Part shown: piece after piece, positions 15,886 through 50,687 of the stretch | Layout: each line of letters opens with the position of its first letter | Numbering within the stretch: the first letter of the stretch is position 1 | Origin: Sphingomonas sp. | Lineage (GTDB): Bacteria; Pseudomonadota; Alphaproteobacteria; Sphingomonadales; Sphingomonadaceae | Assembly: GCF_017304635.1 (NCBI RefSeq) | Contig: NZ_JAFKMA010000003.1 | Coordinates: forward strand, 67,001-131,000 | Length of the DNA stretch: 64,000 nt | Direction: 5' to 3' | The notes under the pieces: generated by a model | What the model was told of the DNA's origin: nothing | Database searches by the model: none | What the model saw: only the letters and a program-made list of their open reading frames with translations | Position numbers and translations under genes: made by a program

Positions 15886-18189
15886 TTATTTCCGCCGCTT
15901 ACCCTGGTGACGGATGTTGCCCGGTCGGCCGCGTCGTTTCAAGACGCGCGGCGGGCGAGCGCCCGACGCGGCGCCGCGTCCCTCCGGTAGTTCGAACCGC
16001 AGCGCGCCGGAGACCGGGTTGGACTCGGCCAGCCGCAGCGTCAGCGTCTGACCGATCGCATATTCGTCGCCCGACGCCTCGCCGACCAGCTTCTTCGCCG
16101 CCTCGTCGTAGCGGAAATATTCGCCCCCCAGATCGCGCACCGGCATCAGCCCGTCGCCGCCGATCCCGTCGACCGTCGCGAAGAATCCGAAATTGGTGAC
16201 CCCGGTGATCCGCACCTCGACCAGTTCGCCGACGCGTTCGGCCAGATACGCGGCGACGTAGCGGTCGATCGTGTCGCGCTCCGCCTCCATCGCGCGGCGC
16301 TCCAGCCGGCTGATCGCCTCGCCGATCCGCTCCATGTTCGCGGCCTCGTCGTCGGTCAGCCCGCCCGGGCCGAGCTTGTACGCCGCGACCAGCGCGCGGT
16401 GCACGATCAGGTCGGCATAGCGGCGGATCGGCGAGGTGAAGTGTGCGTAACTGCCGAGACTCAGCCCGAAATGGCCGTGATTGGCCGGCGCGTAATAGGC
16501 CTGCGTCTGGCTGCGCAGCACCTGCTCCATCACCTGCGGCCGGAAATCCGCGTCGCCGATGCGATCGAGGATGTGGTTGAACGTCGCCGGACGGATCACC
16601 TGGCCGAGCGCGAATTTGACGCCGTACGTCTCCAGATAATCCTTCAGCGCGACCAGTTTCTCGCGCGCGGGCGGTTCGTGGACGCGGTACATGACCGGGG
16701 CCTTCTTCGCCTCCAGCGCCTTCGCCGCGGCGACGTTGGCGGCGATCATATAGTCCTCGATCAGGCGGTGCGCATCGAGCCGTTCGCGCGGCGCGACCGA
16801 CAGGATGCGCCCCTTCTCGTCGAGCATCACGCGACGTTCGGGCAGATCGAGGTCGAGCGGCTCCCGCGCATCCCGCGCCTTCGCCAGCGCGCGCCAACAG
16901 GACCAGAGCGGGGTGAGGATCGTCTTGAGCCCCTCCCCTTTAGGGGAGGGGTTGGGGGTGGGGGATATCTCATCGAGCCGGACCGCCCGTGACTGCCCCA
17001 CCCCAACCCCTCCCCTGAAGGGGAGGGGCTTGCCATCCATCACCGCCTGCGCATCTTCGTAGGCGACGTTCGCCGCGATCCGCACCACCGCGCGGGAGAA
17101 GCGCCACGCCTTTAGCTGCCCGTCCTTGCCGACCGTCAGGTGACACGCCAGCGCCGCGCGGTCCTCGCCGGTCTTCAGGCTGCACACCTCGGCCGACAGG
17201 ATCTCGGGCAGCATCGGCACGACGCGATCGGGGAAATAGACCGAATTGCCGCGCCGTCGCGCCTCGCGGTCGAGCGCCGAGCCGGGACGGACGTAGAACG
17301 ACACGTCGGCGATCGCGACCACCGCGCGCCAGCCGCCGGGATTGGCGGGATCGTCGTCCGGCGCCGCCCACACCGCGTCGTCATGGTCGCGCGCATCGGC
17401 CGGGTCGATCGCGACGATCGGCAGGTGCGTCAAATCCTCGCGGTCGTCGCCGAGTGGTTGTTTCGCGACGCATTCCGCCTCGTCCTGCGTCTCGTCGGCG
17501 AACTGGTCGGGGATGCCGTGCTCGTGGATCGCGATCAGCGAGAAGGCGCGTGGCGCGAACGGATCGCCCAGCCGCTCGGTCACGCGCGCGGTGATGCGCG
17601 GCGGGCGGCCCGCTTTTTCCGCCAGCACCAGGTCGCCGGCTTGCGCCTCGCCCGGATCGGAGACCGGATATTGCCGCCGCTCGCGTTTCTCGACCCCCTC
17701 CAGCCACAGTCCGTTCGCCTCGCGGCGGAGCACGCCGAGCATCAACTCGTCGCCCTTCGCCAATTGCTTCATCGGGTGCGCGATCCAGCCGTTGCCGGCC
17801 TCTTCCGTGCGCGCGAGGATGCGGTCGCCGATGCCCAAAGCCGACCGCTTGCCGCGCTCCCGCACGCGCAGCCGCGGCATCGGCGCGGCGTCGGCGTCCC
17901 AGCGTTCGGGCACCGCCCAGACGTTGCCCCCGTCGTCGACGTCGGTCACGCGCAGCACCGTCACCTTGGGCAGGCCGCCCATCTTGTGGAACGCGCGGCC
18001 CGGCGCCGAATCGATCAGCCCCTCGTCCGCCATGTCCTTCAGCAGCGCCTTCAGCGCGATCTTCTCCTGCGCGGTCAGCCCGAACGCCTTCGCGATCTCG
18101 CGCTTGCCCGTCGGCTGGTCGGACGACGTGATGAAGTCGAGGATCTGCTGTCGAGTGGGAAGGCCGGGCTGTCGCTTGGGTCTGGGCAT
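15886..18189 (-). CDS. rnr: Ribonuclease R (RNB-domain exoribonuclease)
   Basis: 767 residues from the ATG at 18189 (MPRPKRQPGLPTRQ). Order: N-terminal winged helix (10-65), cold-shock domains (75-230), RNB catalytic domain with the acidic cluster IDPADARDHDDAVW (261-274), S1 domain (about 640-720) and a basic tail ending KRRK. It degrades structured RNA 3' to 5'. Odd: residues about 386-421 (starting GKPLPFRGGVGVGQ) are encoded by a GC-rich inverted-repeat element lying in frame inside the RNB domain, absent from ordinary RNase R. Divergent from glpD. Confidence 0.92.
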   Translation of the reverse strand: MPRPKRQPGLPTRQQILDFITSSDQPTGKREIAKAFGLTAQEKIALKALLKDMADEGLIDSAPGRAFHKMGGLPKVTVLRVTDVDDGGNVWAVPERWDADAAPMPRLRVRERGKRSALGIGDRILARTEEAGNGWIAHPMKQLAKGDELMLGVLRREANGLWLEGVEKRERRQYPVSDPGEAQAGDLVLAEKAGRPPRITARVTERLGDPFAPRAFSLIAIHEHGIPDQFADETQDEAECVAKQPLGDDREDLTHLPIVAIDPADARDHDDAVWAAPDDDPANPGGWRAVVAIADVSFYVRPGSALDREARRRGNSVYFPDRVVPMLPEILSAEVCSLKTGEDRAALACHLTVGKDGQLKAWRFSRAVVRIAANVAYEDAQAVMDGKPLPFRGGVGVGQSRAVRLDEISPTPNPSPKGEGLKTILTPLWSCWRALAKARDAREPLDLDLPERRVMLDEKGRILSVAPRERLDAHRLIEDYMIAANVAAAKALEAKKAPVMYRVHEPPAREKLVALKDYLETYGVKFALGQVIRPATFNHILDRIGDADFRPQVMEQVLRSQTQAYYAPANHGHFGLSLGSYAHFTSPIRRYADLIVHRALVAAYKLGPGGLTDDEAANMERIGEAISRLERRAMEAERDTIDRYVAAYLAERVGELVEVRITGVTNFGFFATVDGIGGDGLMPVRDLGGEYFRYDEAAKKLVGEASGDEYAIGQTLTLRLAESNPVSGALRFELPEGRGAASGARPPRVLKRRGRPGNIRHQGKRRK
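16928..17031. repeat. REP-doublet palindromic element inside the rnr coding sequence
   Basis: On the rnr coding strand the element reads GCCCCTCCCC-ttca-GGGGAGGGG, then TTGGGGTGGGG, a 30-base unique centre, then CCCCACCCCCAA, CCCCTCCCC-taaa-GGGGAGGGG-CT: two hairpins in mirror orientation. It encodes about 34 extra residues and keeps the rnr frame open on both sides. No comparable segment is expected at this position of the RNB domain. Confidence 0.9.
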
Positions 18190-46802: not shown

Positions 46803-47063
46803 CTATCCCTCGATCTTCGAGAAATCGGCCACTGCATGGACCGCGTCGCGCACACGCGCCAGCAGCGCCAGCCGCGCCGCGCGTTTGGCCGGATCCGGGT
46901 CGTTCACGGTCACGCTGTCAAAGAACGCATCGATCGGCGCACGGAGCGTCGCGAGCGCCGCCATCGCCGCCGCGAAATCCTCCGCCCGCACCGCATCGGC
47001 GGCGGCGGGCTCGGCGGCATCGAGCGCGGCGATCAGGGCAGCTTCGGCGATTTCGGGCGTGTA
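46803..47063 (-). pseudogene. glyS: Displaced 3' end of glyS (out of frame)
   Basis: Translated from 47063 this frame gives [20 protein letters not shown] and ends with [16 protein letters not shown]...VADFSKIEG, the normal C-terminus of GlyS (the DALR-type anticodon-binding end). It is in a different reading frame from the main glyS ORF because a 41-bp palindromic insert (47064-47104) is not a multiple of three. With one more base in the insert, the frames would join. No start codon is evident, so it needs frameshifting to be expressed, or is dead. Confidence 0.8.
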
Positions 47064-49141
47064 GGAAAGCCCCGAATCCCCTCTCCCAGTGGGAGAGGGG
47101 AATACCCCTCCTTCTTCAGGATATTCGCCGCGCGCTTGTACCCGGCGAGCAGGTTCGCCCCGTCCTCGGTCCCGACGAACGCCTGCAACGCCCGGACGCG
47201 TGCGAGCAGCCGGACGAGATCGTCCTCCCCCCCAAGCGCGAACACCGCGTCGATCAGGTCGTGACGGACCCCGGCCTCGCGTTGCTGGACCTTGAGGCGG
47301 TCGGCGAAGAAATCGAGCAGGTCCTCGACGACCACTCGACGCCTTTTAAGTAGTTCTGTTTCCGCTTTGATGTTTGCAGAGGCATCGCCCAGGACTTTGT
47401 CCGAGGCTTCCTTGCCCAAACGACCGTCATGTCGATATTCTTTAGCGAACTGAACTTTCTCTAGCGCCACATCCAGACCCGAGCCGAGTTCATGCACTCT
47501 GGCGAGCGCGGCTACGACTGCGGTTTTCAGAGAAAAGCGAAGGTCAGACTTCAAGACTGTAGACAAAATACCAAGCGCCGACCGCCGAAGCGCGAAGGGG
47601 TCTTTGGAACCACTGGGCTTGAAATCGGCCCAAAAAAAGCTGGCGATCGTATCCAGCTTGTCCGCCAGCGACACCGCCACGGTCACCGGCGCGGTGGGCA
47701 CGTCATCCCCCTGCCCGACCGGCTTGTAGTGATCGCGGATCGCTTCCGCGACCGCCGCGTCCTCGCCCTGCGCGGCGGCGTAATAGCCGCCCATCAGGCC
47801 CTGCAATTCGGGGAACTCGCCGACCATGCCGGTGACAAGGTCGGCCTTGGCCAGCCGAGCGGCGCGTTCGGCCTGGTCGGCCAATACCCCTCTCCCCTCG
47901 GGAGAGGGGCGAGGCGCGACAGCGCCGAGGGGTGAGGGCTGGGTCGAACCGCTGGCCGTTTCGACCCGGCCCTCACCCCGCGCGCCTGACGGCGCTTTCC
48001 CCTCTCCCAAGGGAAGAGGGGAAATGATCCCCGCCTCGACCAGCCAGCGCGCCAGCTTCGCGACACGATCGACCTTGTCGGCGACGGTGCCCAATTTCTC
48101 GTGGAACACGATCTTCGCGAGCTTCTCCGCCTGCTCCGCGAGCGGCACTTTCAGGTCGGTCTCGTAGAAGAAGCGCGCGTCGCTCAGCCGCGCGGCGAGC
48201 ACCTTGCGGTTGCCCTCGACGATCTTCATGCCCCCATCCGCCGCGTCGATATTGGCGACGCAGACGAACGCGTTGGCCAGTTTGCCCGACGCATCACGGC
48301 AGACGAAATACTTCTGGTTCACCCGCGCGGTGAGCTGGATCACCTCCGGCGGCACGTCGAGGAACGCCGCGTCGAAGCGGCCGAGCAGCGGCACCGGCCA
48401 TTCGGTCAGCCCGGCATTCTCCGCCACCAGCCCCTCGTCGGGGATCAGCGCGAGCCCCGCCGTCGCGGCCAGCGCCGTCGCGCGGTCGCGGACGATCGCG
48501 CGGCGCTCGTCCTGATCGACGATGACATGGCACGCGCGCAGTTTCTCGGCATAGTCCGCCGCCGATCCGATCGTGATCGCACCCGGATGATGGAAGCGGT
48601 GGCCGAGCGTTGCGGCGCCCGAGGTGACGCCGGCGATCTCGACCGGCACCACGTCTTCGCCCAGCAACGCGACGATGCCGTGGAGCGGCCGCACCCAGCG
48701 CAGGCTTTCCGTGCTGAGCGACGCCGCGCCCCAGCGCATCGACTTCGGCCAAGGGAAGCCGCGGACGATAGCCGGGATCGCCTCCGCCAGCACGTCGCGG
48801 GTCCCGCGGCCGGGCTTGTCGATCACGGCGTAGAGCACGCCGTCGCGCTCGACCAGCTGGTCGGCGGTCAGCCCGGTCTTGCGCAGGAACCCGTCGAGCG
48901 CCTGCGGCGGAGCCCCGACGCGCGGGCCCTTCACCTCGTCGCTGATGGCGGCGGTCTCGGCCGGCAGATCGCGCGCGATCAGCGCGAGCCGGCGCGGCGT
49001 CGCGAACGTCTCGATCGCGCCCGCCTTCAGCCCCGCCTTGTCGAGTTCGCCCGCGAACAACCGCGCGAGATCGTCCCGCGCCTTGTCCTGCATCCGCGCC
49101 GGGATTTCCTCGCACCGCAATTCGAGCAGGAAGTCGGTCAT
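47033..49141 (-). CDS. glyS: Glycyl-tRNA synthetase beta subunit with two palindrome insertions
   Basis: 702 residues as read. It starts [20 protein letters not shown] and has the family core [19 protein letters not shown] and [15 protein letters not shown]. Two oddities: residues about 373-419 (from [10 protein letters not shown] to PSPEGRG) are encoded by an in-frame palindromic element, and after residue about 677 a second insert shifts the frame, replacing the true C-terminus with about 25 aberrant residues. The stretch 47340-47640 is AT-rich relative to the gene. It pairs with glyQ, and is coupled to the DUF559 gene (ATGA). Confidence 0.9.
47064..47104. repeat. 41-bp palindromic insert near the 3' end of glyS
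   Basis: It contains a perfect 11-bp stem (CCCCTCTCCCA/TGGGAGAGGGG, 47078-47100) with a one-base centre. Removing the 41 bases would join the codons GAG GGG directly to TAC ACG, giving the expected GlyS C-terminus. Same terminal hairpin type as the larger element at 47887-48022. Confidence 0.85.
47887..48022. repeat. Composite REP doublet inside the glyS coding sequence
   Basis: Order on the plus strand: hairpin CCCCTCTCCC-ctc-GGGAGAGGGG; small hairpin GGCGC-gaca-GCGCC; arm GGGGTGAGGGC and GGGTCGAA; 11-base centre; mirrored TTCGACCC and GCCCTCACCCC; hairpin GCGCC/GGCGC; hairpin TCCCCTCTCCC-aa-GGGAAGAGGGGA. The whole is one large inverted repeat of about 136 bp. It leaves glyS in frame. Confidence 0.92.
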
Positions 49142-49602
49142 ACATCCTCCCCGTTCACGGGGAGGGGGACCATGCCGGAGGCATGGTGGAGGGGGCGGGC
49201 CGCGAACGCCACGATCGATTGCGCCGCTTCGTCGGCATCGCGGAGGACATCGGCGGCGGGAACGCGCAAAATCCGATAGCCCTGCCGCTCCAACCCGATC
49301 GTTCGCTCGACATCCCGCTGCGGCCGGTCGCCCATGTCATGCGCCGCCCCATCCACCTCGATCACCAATTTCGCGGCGGCGCAGTAGAAGTCGGCGCGAT
49401 AACGACCGATCGGATGTTGCTTGCGAAAGGCGATGCCCTGCGGCGAACCCTTGAGTCGCTGCCACAACAGCACCTCGGGCAAGCTCATGGCGCGGCGAGC
49501 CTTGCGGGCCTCATATACTTCGGGCCGGCGGAGCGAGGGCGAACCCCCTCCGGCGCTTCGCGCCACCTCCCCGTCCCGGGGAGGATTTTGGATAGCCGCC
49601 AT
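49138..49602 (-). CDS. DUF559 (Vsr-like PD-(D/E)XK) endonuclease between glyQ and glyS
   Basis: 154 residues. The DUF559 core has SLPEVLLWQRLKG, FRKQHPIGRYRADFYC and LVIEVDGAAHD with likely catalytic Asp71, Glu82 and Asp84, as in very-short-patch-repair-type nucleases. Both ends of the protein (NPPRDGEVARSAGGG; PLHHASGMVPLPVNGED) are encoded by the inverted halves of a palindromic element (49146-49195 and 49544-49584). ATG overlaps the glyQ stop (TGATG), stop overlaps the glyS ATG (ATGA). It has no role in glycine charging; it looks like a cargo or mobilising gene. Confidence 0.85.
   Translation of the reverse strand: MAAIQNPPRDGEVARSAGGGSPSLRRPEVYEARKARRAMSLPEVLLWQRLKGSPQGIAFRKQHPIGRYRADFYCAAAKLVIEVDGAAHDMGDRPQRDVERTIGLERQGYRILRVPAADVLRDADEAAQSIVAFAARPLHHASGMVPLPVNGEDV
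49146..49195. repeat. Right half of the palindromic element bracketing the DUF559 gene
   Basis: On the plus strand: terminal hairpin CCTCCCCG-ttca-CGGGGAGG (49146-49165), second hairpin CCATGCC/GGCATGG (49170-49186) and tract GGAGGGGG (49188-49195). It mirrors the left half at 49544-49584 about 350 bp away. It lies at the glyS start and encodes the DUF559 C-terminal tail. Confidence 0.88.
49544..49584. repeat. Left half of the palindromic element bracketing the DUF559 gene
   Basis: On the plus strand: tract CCCCCTCC (49544-49551), small hairpin GGCGC-ttc-GCGCC (49552-49564) and terminal hairpin CCTCCCCG-tcc-CGGGGAGG (49566-49584). It has the same order of parts as a half of the glyS element at 47887-48022. 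It encodes the N-terminal segment of the DUF559 protein. Confidence 0.88.
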
Positions 49603-50513
49603 CACGCCGCGCTCCAGCCGGGATAGCACGCCTGCCAGCCGGCCGCGTTCTTCTCCATCCACGCGGCGCATGCACCCTTCGCGAGGTCGCGGACGCGGCC
49701 GATATAGGCCTGGCGTTCGGCGACGGAGATCACGCCGCGCGCGTTCAGCAGGTTGAAGATGTGGCTCGCCTCGATCGCCTGTTCGTAGGCCGGGATCGGG
49801 AGGTTGTGCGCCAGGCAATTCTCGCACTCCGCCGCCGCCTTGCGGAACAGGTCGAACAGCGTCTCGGTGTCGGCGACCTCGAAGTTCCAGGTCGACATCT
49901 CGACTTCGTTCTCGTGGAACACGTCGCCATAGGTCACGCCCCTCTGACCTTTTGGGGCATCGTTGAACGCCAGGTCGTACACGCTGTCCTTGCTCTGGAT
50001 GTACAGCGCGAGGCGTTCGAGGCCGTAGGTCAATTCGCCTGCGACCGGCTTGCAGTCGAACCCGCCCATCTGCTGGAAATAGGTGAACTGCGTGACTTCC
50101 ATCCCGTCGCACCACACTTCCCAGCCGAGCCCCCAGGCGCCGAGCGTCGGGCTTTCCCAATCGTCCTCGACGAAGCGGATATCGTGGTTGGCGGTGTCGA
50201 TACCGATCGCCTGCAAGCTGCCGAGATACAGGTCCTGCAAATCGGGCGGGCTCGGCTTCAGGATGACCTGATACTGGTAGTAATGCTGGAGCCGGTTCGG
50301 GTTCTCGCCGTAGCGGCCGTCGGTCGGGCGGCGGCACGGCTGGACGAAGGCAGCGTTCCACGGCTCCGGCCCCAGCGCACGAAGCGTCGTAGCGGTATGG
50401 AACGTCCCCGCCCCCATCCGCATGTCATAGGGTTGCAGGATCAGGCAGCCGCGCGCGCTCCAATAGTCATGGAGCGTCAGGATCATGCGCTGGAAGGAAA
50501 GCGGCTGGGTCAT
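49602..50513 (-). CDS. glyQ: Glycyl-tRNA synthetase alpha subunit
   Basis: 303 residues from the ATG at 50513 ([20 protein letters not shown]). Family motifs include [39 protein letters not shown] and [20 protein letters not shown]. It forms the alpha2beta2 enzyme with GlyS. An upstream in-frame ATG at 50558 adds 15 residues not expected in the family. The stop overlaps the DUF559 start. Confidence 0.95.
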
Positions 50514-50616
50514 ATTGCGGTTGCGAACGCCTCTGGCGCAGGGGTGGCGAACGGTCAATGGCGCGGAAAGCGGTTACGGTATGCAGTGACCCCAAATGAC
50601 GCCCCTCAAGTCATGC

Positions 50617-50687
50617 GCCTCCCCGGCGAAGGCCGGGGTCCAGTATCGGGCGGCTCGCAACTGGACCCCGGCATTCGCCGGGGAGGC
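50617..50687. repeat. REP doublet upstream of the TraB/GumN genes
   Basis: Mirror layout GCCTCCCCGGC-gaag-GCCGGGG-TCCAGT ... ACTGGA-CCCCGGC-attc-GCCGGGGAGGC. The right part (gctcgcaactggacccc) closely matches the copy at 54576-54640 (gctcacaactggacccc). It lies in the divergent region between glyQ and the TraB/GumN gene. Confidence 0.88.

Follow-up and report, generated by a model that had tools for sequence, protein, structure and literature searches.

A small gene of the DUF559 family (Pfam PF04480) lies between two mirrored palindromic arms in a 64,000-nucleotide stretch of a Sphingomonas sp. genome (contig NZ_JAFKMA010000003.1, positions 67,001 to 131,000; henceforth the window), where it separates glyQ from glyS. 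Most such genes of the same order are bracketed by inverted palindromes, as are many outside it, and the palindromes follow the protein clades in both kind and number. We consider it likely that DUF559 proteins are the nucleases that mobilise their cognate palindromes.

Bracketing was scored by local alignment of the 220 bp to the left of each gene with the reverse complement of the 220 bp to its right, and the same geometry shifted by 1 to 3.6 kb within the same loci provided the controls. With a cut at a score of at least 18, fixed after the score ladder had been viewed (at least 14, 123 of 132 loci vs 55 of 2,804 controls; at least 25, 96 of 132 vs 1 of 2,804), 115 of 132 loci in the order are bracketed compared to 1 of 2,804 controls. 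This order set comprises 61 genomes, 45 of which have PF04480, with 151 matches in total; 134 were used and 132 were testable, since 2 lie at contig ends. The 17 matches left out are 2 at contig edges (G045:C18 and G038:C156), 5 fragments or large-frame matches (4 of which, L301 to L304, were read afterwards), 9 with E>1e-8, and 1 that was unlisted. Chance pairing in a GC-rich background is ruled out as a source of the brackets, given the single bracketed position among the order controls.

Beyond the order, the best-scoring matches were taken from the class (29 loci, 27 testable) and the phylum (27 loci), and bracketing was found at 16/27 class loci (controls, 0/106) and 12/27 phylum loci (controls, 2/108). 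Among named records, represented by the best 80 of 577 matches, it was found at 53/77 (controls, 0/284), so that all sets pooled give 196/263 bracketed loci vs 3/3,302 controls, with 2 loci common to two sets. The bracketed named records are titled Chloroflexi, WOR-3, Marinimicrobia, Gastranaerophilales, Binatia, and Rickettsiales, among others; they are mostly metagenome assemblies, as are many of the named records overall, and their organism names may therefore be misassigned. In a plasmid collection (5 records of 45 matching), L306, L307, L308, and L309 are bracketed with scores of 20.5, 25.5, 98, and 57, and L308 adjoins an annotated IS4-like transposase.

The bracketed unit is compact, with a median length of 425 to 466.5 bp depending on the palindrome family (477 bp for unclassified loci), and DUF559 is the sole gene seen inside it. 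By eye, all 5 PF04480 genes of the window's own genome have palindromic ends, one of them (L002) with its right end broken by extra sequence. Where the domain is part of a larger frame (L303 and L304, 363 aa), no palindromes were seen in the flanks examined, which limits the link to small stand-alone DUF559 genes.

The ends have a recurrent build. A pyrimidine hairpin followed by an inward G-rich tract is found on both sides of 84/132 order loci and on one side of another 34 (controls, 0 and 6 of 573), while both tracts face outward at 7/132 order loci and, among the best 80 of 577 named records, at 11/78. The Deinococcus plasmid loci L309 and L306, whose DUF559 genes lie between paa or near hpa genes, also have the G-rich tract facing outward, opposite to the usual sphingomonad polarity. 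Motifs of the G-quadruplex type occur on both arms at 48/132 loci vs 0/1,409 controls. Read by eye, the tags of the palindromes are the G-rich tracts GGGTGAGGG, GGAGGGGG, and GGGGTGGGG; no GTAG (or CGTC) tag was seen among them, though no formal GTAG search was made. For the second hairpins of family C, 17 distinct 34-nt forms among the sites listed have 97.5% of cells paired and 18 double-change cells vs 6.4 in shuffles, with a search pattern that itself fixed the outer pairs. These compensatory double changes in excess of shuffles suggest that the stem is kept rather than its letters.

The palindromes fall into five families (A to E), and one family is present on both sides at 109/134 order loci. 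For 107 of these 109 genes, the closest protein relative from a different genome carries palindromes of the same family (1,000 shuffles: mean 29.7, maximum 47), so that the phylogeny of DUF559 and that of its flanking repeats go together. Within a genome, the left flank of one DUF559 gene matches the right flank of another in only 9.5% of 444 pairs, and most copies thus have private ends. Neither flank is shared by 36 pairs with at least 65% protein identity; all 32 relocated pairs with classified ends nevertheless have the same palindrome family on both members, and no related neighbouring frames were found around any of the 17 pairs checked. Taken together with the closest pairs described below, this suggests that DUF559 genes are mostly inherited in place and sometimes relocate with their ends.

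Gene-less palindromes are more numerous where the matching gene is present. Among 37 genus genomes, each family has more copies where the gene of its clade is found (one-sided p: A 9e-4, B 4.5e-6, C 1.4e-5, D 2e-3, E 3.9e-6). Phylogenetic generalized least squares (PGLS) with a 30-genome GlyS tree gave p of 0.0097 to 1.3e-9 for the five on-family relations and of 0.03 to 1.1e-7 after subtraction of two copies per gene, compared to p<0.05 in 3 of 20 off-family relations (A-D 0.03, A-E 0.044, B-D 0.027). In the class, 27 of the 45 genomes with DUF559 (E<=1e-15) have at least five family-A palindromes vs 2 of the 148 without it, 193 genomes in all. Sites of the reversed patterns, counted as a control, number 0 in all genomes for families B to E and 0 in 59/61 for family A, which likewise speaks against a chance origin. 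The initial annotation had suggested that DUF559 plays a part like that of the transposases associated with repetitive extragenic palindromes (REPs), known as RAYTs, with the empty elements as non-autonomous copies. The flanking of most DUF559 genes in related genomes, the agreement of repeat family with protein clade, and the relation of repeat number to gene presence all speak for this proposal, with the part of driver being one that we infer.

Several observations and choices pull the other way. The window gene itself scores 13.5, below the cut (95th and 99th percentiles of controls, 13 and 14.5), because its second hairpins differ even though its terminal hairpins match; it is one of 17/132 misses in the order, and the miss rate is higher outside it (11/27 in the class, 15/27 in the phylum, and 24/77 among the best 80 of 577 named matches). 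The plasmid-collection locus of Neisseria gonorrhoeae, L305, is unbracketed at 10.0. The ends had been viewed before the palindrome classes and patterns were defined, the classes were refined once after misfits, and the 25/134 loci without a single shared class were excluded from the concordance and assigned by nearest neighbour for the copy-number tests. DUF559 genes appear to descend mainly by vertical inheritance, with both flanks shared in all 10 pairs of at least 80% identity, and the order set holds no within-genome DUF559 copies with at least 70% identity. The uncorrected off-family comparisons reached p<0.05 in 6 of 20 cases. The window gene belongs to clade C, yet its own genome has just 3 strict family-C sites (A 39, B 8, D 14, E 0); G018 carries 137 family-E sites although no E gene was assigned to it, and at least 14 D sites occur in each of eight genomes that lack an assigned D gene. 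PF01797, the domain of RAYT and IS200 proteins, is present in the palindrome-rich order genomes G010, G033, G042, and G048. No clear target-site duplication was seen at the G028/G012 comparison described below or at the other glyQ-glyS junctions compared, and it was dropped as a diagnostic. Finally, PD-(D/E)XK nucleases are not known to join cut strands by themselves. In G018 (L301, C-type) and G004 (L302, A-type), palindromes remain next to DUF559 copies that are broken or frame-shifted, which fits gene loss after palindrome spread without proving it.

The protein appears to be a PD-(D/E)XK nuclease of the Vsr-like/EDxHD kind, judging from its modelled fold together with conserved acidic and histidine residues, in agreement with the fold named in the initial annotation. 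E43, D71, E82, D84, and H88 are conserved without exception across 42 sequences, and all five are present in the window protein. The AlphaFold model (42 sequences) has a mean predicted local distance difference test score (pLDDT) of 80, with core blocks at 90 to 97 and residues 81 to 100, where some of the conserved positions lie, at 74 to 79. Best folds in Foldseek are 3hrl (N. gonorrhoeae NGO0050), 3r3p (I-Bth0305I), some Toxoplasma mitoribosomal proteins, PvuRts1I, and Vsr (1cw0, E=0.011), and sequence profiles match 3hrl at E=2.4e-37. Besides PF04480, the window protein matches PF18741 below the Pfam cut-off. In Pfam, the function of DUF559 is still entered as unknown. The E. coli member YcjD had already been placed in the PD-(D/E)XK superfamily by a 2005 analysis (PMC1189080). 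The accessible text on Caulobacter VsrA, a protein with a DUF559 domain and like our protein a Vsr relative in fold, holds it responsible for the SOS response in cells that lack a cytosine methyltransferase; that text proposes a mismatch-repair role for it and leaves palindromes unmentioned (PMC12907096).

Under our preferred reading, the DUF559 gene together with its paired arms would constitute a single mobile element of about 0.45 kb. Its product would recognise the cognate palindrome and its G-rich tract, which in single-stranded form would be a hairpin and possibly a triplex, and would cut at or near the palindrome. Host break repair or replication might then copy the element to new places, with the host also joining the strands. 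Copying would rarely include the element's own gene (in cis) and would more often yield further palindromes of the same kind without a gene (in trans).

It seems unlikely to us that the palindromes are moved by another factor, with DUF559 as cargo or as a captured host gene. Against this stand the lack of any second gene observed between the brackets, the agreement of the ends with the DUF559 clades, and the tendency of matching gene-less copies to follow the matching clade under PGLS. RAYT or IS200 proteins can be rejected as general drivers, since PF01797 was not found in 34 of the 37 genus genomes (the window's own genome and palindrome-rich ones included) and does occur in the palindrome-poor G006 and G059, though the four palindrome-rich order genomes named above have both. 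What this alternative has on its side is that DUF559-driven movement is something we infer, together with the mismatch-repair reading of VsrA (PMC12907096).

Rather unlikely, too, is a caretaker function in which a structure-specific nuclease or repair enzyme for hairpins or triplexes is retained in repeat-rich genomes, with its terminal repeats serving autoregulation or arising as by-products of its activity. The Vsr-like fold would suit such an enzyme, as would the SOS response that VsrA causes in a methyltransferase mutant (PMC12907096) and the link of E. coli triplex motifs to genome instability (PMC4666352). Yet a caretaker would account poorly for a matched inverted pair, for private ends, and for genes that are found with their ends in unrelated neighbourhoods. 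That the palindromes are ordinary transcription terminators with small genes merely between them, as such repeats were presumed to be in Enterobacter sp. 638 (PMC2869309), is highly improbable in view of the near absence of brackets at slid positions, of the in-frame translation of the glyS element described below, and of the lack of promoter or terminator activity of the E. coli motif in an earlier study, as cited in PMC4666352.

Known systems offer partial parallels. REPtrons consist of a RAYT (TnpAREP) together with its REPs and the REP doublets called REPINs, and PMC8266576 and PMC8049555 describe a gene that adjoins inverted palindromes, gene-less inverted doublets throughout the genome, a gene that is mostly single-copy and vertically inherited, coevolution of gene and repeat, and more repeat copies where the gene is present. 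DUF559 loci resemble them in each of these respects, including inverted palindromes of a single family on either side of the gene and, aside from the G018 and D-site exceptions, the relation of gene presence to copy number. Unlike RAYTs, the DUF559 protein seems to be a Vsr-like PD-(D/E)XK nuclease rather than an HUH enzyme and has no HUH/Y1 domain (PF01797); its repeats carry, by eye, a G-rich tract in place of GTAG, and one genome can hold several DUF559 gene-palindrome families. By analogy, the DUF559 system thus appears to work like a REPtron while not being a member, because it lacks the HUH enzyme and the tags read are not GTAG. IS200/IS605 elements are very small and consist of one short nuclease gene with palindromic ends. 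The DUF559 unit shares these traits, some of which also appear in PMC8266576; it differs in enzyme fold, and single-strand transposition is a feature of IS200/IS605. The EDxHD homing endonuclease I-Bth0305I is similar in sequence profile (E=1.1e-5) and fold (TM-score 0.74 to 0.75 by target length), but it is described as a mobile intron protein, whereas the DUF559 gene is free-standing between glyQ and glyS and between palindromes; no intron search was made.

A further parallel is found in the intrastrand triplex motifs (TM, earlier PIT), reported from more than 260 bacterial genomes (PMC4666352). According to that report, the E. coli triplex forms in vitro and has not been seen in vivo, and no mobility genes turned up in the vicinity of its copies in E. 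coli. In their sequence, DUF559 ends resemble TM repeats in having a pyrimidine G/C-rich hairpin followed by a third, G-rich tract that could form a putative triplex, and in occurring as inverted pairs with a differing second loop (TTA/CCG in TM; TT/CC among the family-E sites listed here); unlike in that report, a gene is tied to such repeats here. Among the family-E sites listed, the members of a doublet often differ in their linker, with CC or TT before the G-tract, which recalls the type A/type B pairs described for the triplex motifs of E. coli. BoxC is presumably another name for the same triplex repeats.

The DUF559 gene of E. coli K-12 is ycjD, whose product matches PF04480 at 1.4e-49, even though a control search with PF04480 returned no E. 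coli match. About 165 bp past its 3' end lies a triplex-type sequence (L312 4205-4241), a weaker hairpin spans the 3' end, and the other side (towards sapF) has a different palindrome with a 15-bp inverted repeat. A near-identity search found ycjD in 3,365 of 5,426 E. coli genomes, and the fabI-ycjD intergenic region was used as a query in 59 of 60 spread rows (one 155-kb record was dropped). The median number of matching places is 15 in the 37 genomes whose best place covers at least 87% of the query vs 4 in the 22 genomes with 34 to 40% coverage (p=5e-10), in a comparison that judges ycjD presence from the flank, not the gene, and counts the flank itself as a place. In two strains the region is of a variant form, and their places number 5 and 10; moreover, ycjD follows phylogroup (PMC12817139). 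Since all four points weaken the comparison and hence its use in favour of mobilisation, the E. coli counts are suggestive only.

On balance we lean towards the broader proposal that DUF559 represents a second, RAYT-independent kind of REPtron across bacteria, in which DUF559 nucleases, YcjD among them, spread PIT/TM repeats with a specific repeat for each clade. In the available open-access literature (subscription journals and preprints were not covered), we found no link between DUF559 and palindromes. A clade-specific nuclease that lies between two copies of a repeat and tracks its copy number is a concrete candidate for the hitherto unrecognised agent that spreads a common type of palindrome in bacteria, and it can be put to the test in E. 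coli K-12 via ycjD. If confirmed, DUF559 would gain a role, in a mobile system of about 0.45 kb that uses a PD-(D/E)XK nuclease, has no recognised transposase, and is convergent with REP/RAYT.

In the window (see the table), the ATG of the DUF559 gene shares 1 nt with the glyQ stop codon (TGATG, 49604-49600) and its stop codon overlaps the glyS ATG (ATGA, 49141-49138), and it is thus coupled into the glyQ-glyS operon. Coordinates and folding agree with the initial description of a gene between two mirrored halves that encode the protein ends, and both arms fold better than shuffles as single-stranded DNA (z -2.9 to -4.1). Their terminal hairpin is of the CCTCCCCG type, which is family C.

Features of the window and of the E. 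coli ycjD region
Feature	Position	Strand	Remarks
DUF559 gene	49138..49602	-	154 aa; PF04480 E=8.4e-25; clade C; predicted PD-(D/E)XK/Vsr-like nuclease
glyS	47033..49141	-	host gene carrying the family-A element
glyQ	49602..50558	-	host gene upstream of DUF559
Low-coordinate arm	49146..49195	+	terminal hairpin, second hairpin, inward G-rich tract; codes for the C-terminus
Low arm, terminal hairpin	49146-49165		CCTCCCCG-TTCA-CGGGGAGG
Low arm, second hairpin	49169-49187		ACCATGCC-GGA-GGCATGGT
Low arm, G-rich tract	49188-49195		GGAGGGGG
High-coordinate arm (mirror)	49544..49584	-	G-rich tract, second hairpin, terminal hairpin; codes for the N-terminus
High arm, tract	49544-49551		CCCCCTCC on the + strand (G-rich on -)
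High arm, second hairpin	49552-49564		GGCGC-TTC-GCGCC
High arm, terminal hairpin	49566-49584		CCTCCCCG-TCC-CGGGGAGG
Gene-less element, family A	47882..48026		CCCTCTCCC / GGGTGAGGG; in frame within glyS; architecture of a DUF559 element
Single family-A hairpin	47079..47099		close to the glyS 3' end
Two family-B/C-like hairpins	16931..17026		59 nt between them; GGGGTTGGGG tract; likely gene-less element
ycjD region, E. coli K-12	L312 4408-4761

The gene-less element inside glyS consists of two 70-nt arms that are 77% complementary and 5 nt apart, and it folds far better than shuffles as single-stranded DNA (z -9.6 to -9.7). It had been noted for the same order of parts as the DUF559 element with the gene absent, and this part of the description stood; its hairpin, however, is of the CCCTCTCCC type and not of the CCTCCCCG type. 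As a member of family A rather than C, it is ruled out as an empty copy of the window gene, and the gene to match it would be one of the A-type DUF559 genes at other places in this genome (L001, L003). The same internal stretch of GlyS has elements at an about constant position that read, depending on the species, as family A, B, C, or D, and in GlyS of G014 the element occupies the place of 23 other bases in G013.

The glyQ-glyS junction was compared in 30 genomes, of which 3 have a DUF559 element (G000, G028, G017), 3 a gene-less element of the DUF559 type (G003; G018, G024), 9 a plain glyQ/glyS overlap, and 15 short gaps or other repeats. One pair captures presence and absence of the element, with 455 bp in G028 vs 0 bp in G012 between flanks that are 90% and 87% identical. 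In L140, L144, L146, L151, L154, L155, L157, and L160, the slot holds other inverted repeats (CGCGGAGACGCGGAG type and similar), and it therefore looks like a general insertion hot spot. A further repeat type (CCGGCGAAGGCCGGGGTC; TCATCCCAGC...GCTGGGGTGAC) is found inside GlyS in L142, at the glyQ-glyS junction in L156, and at about 50616-50640 of the window.

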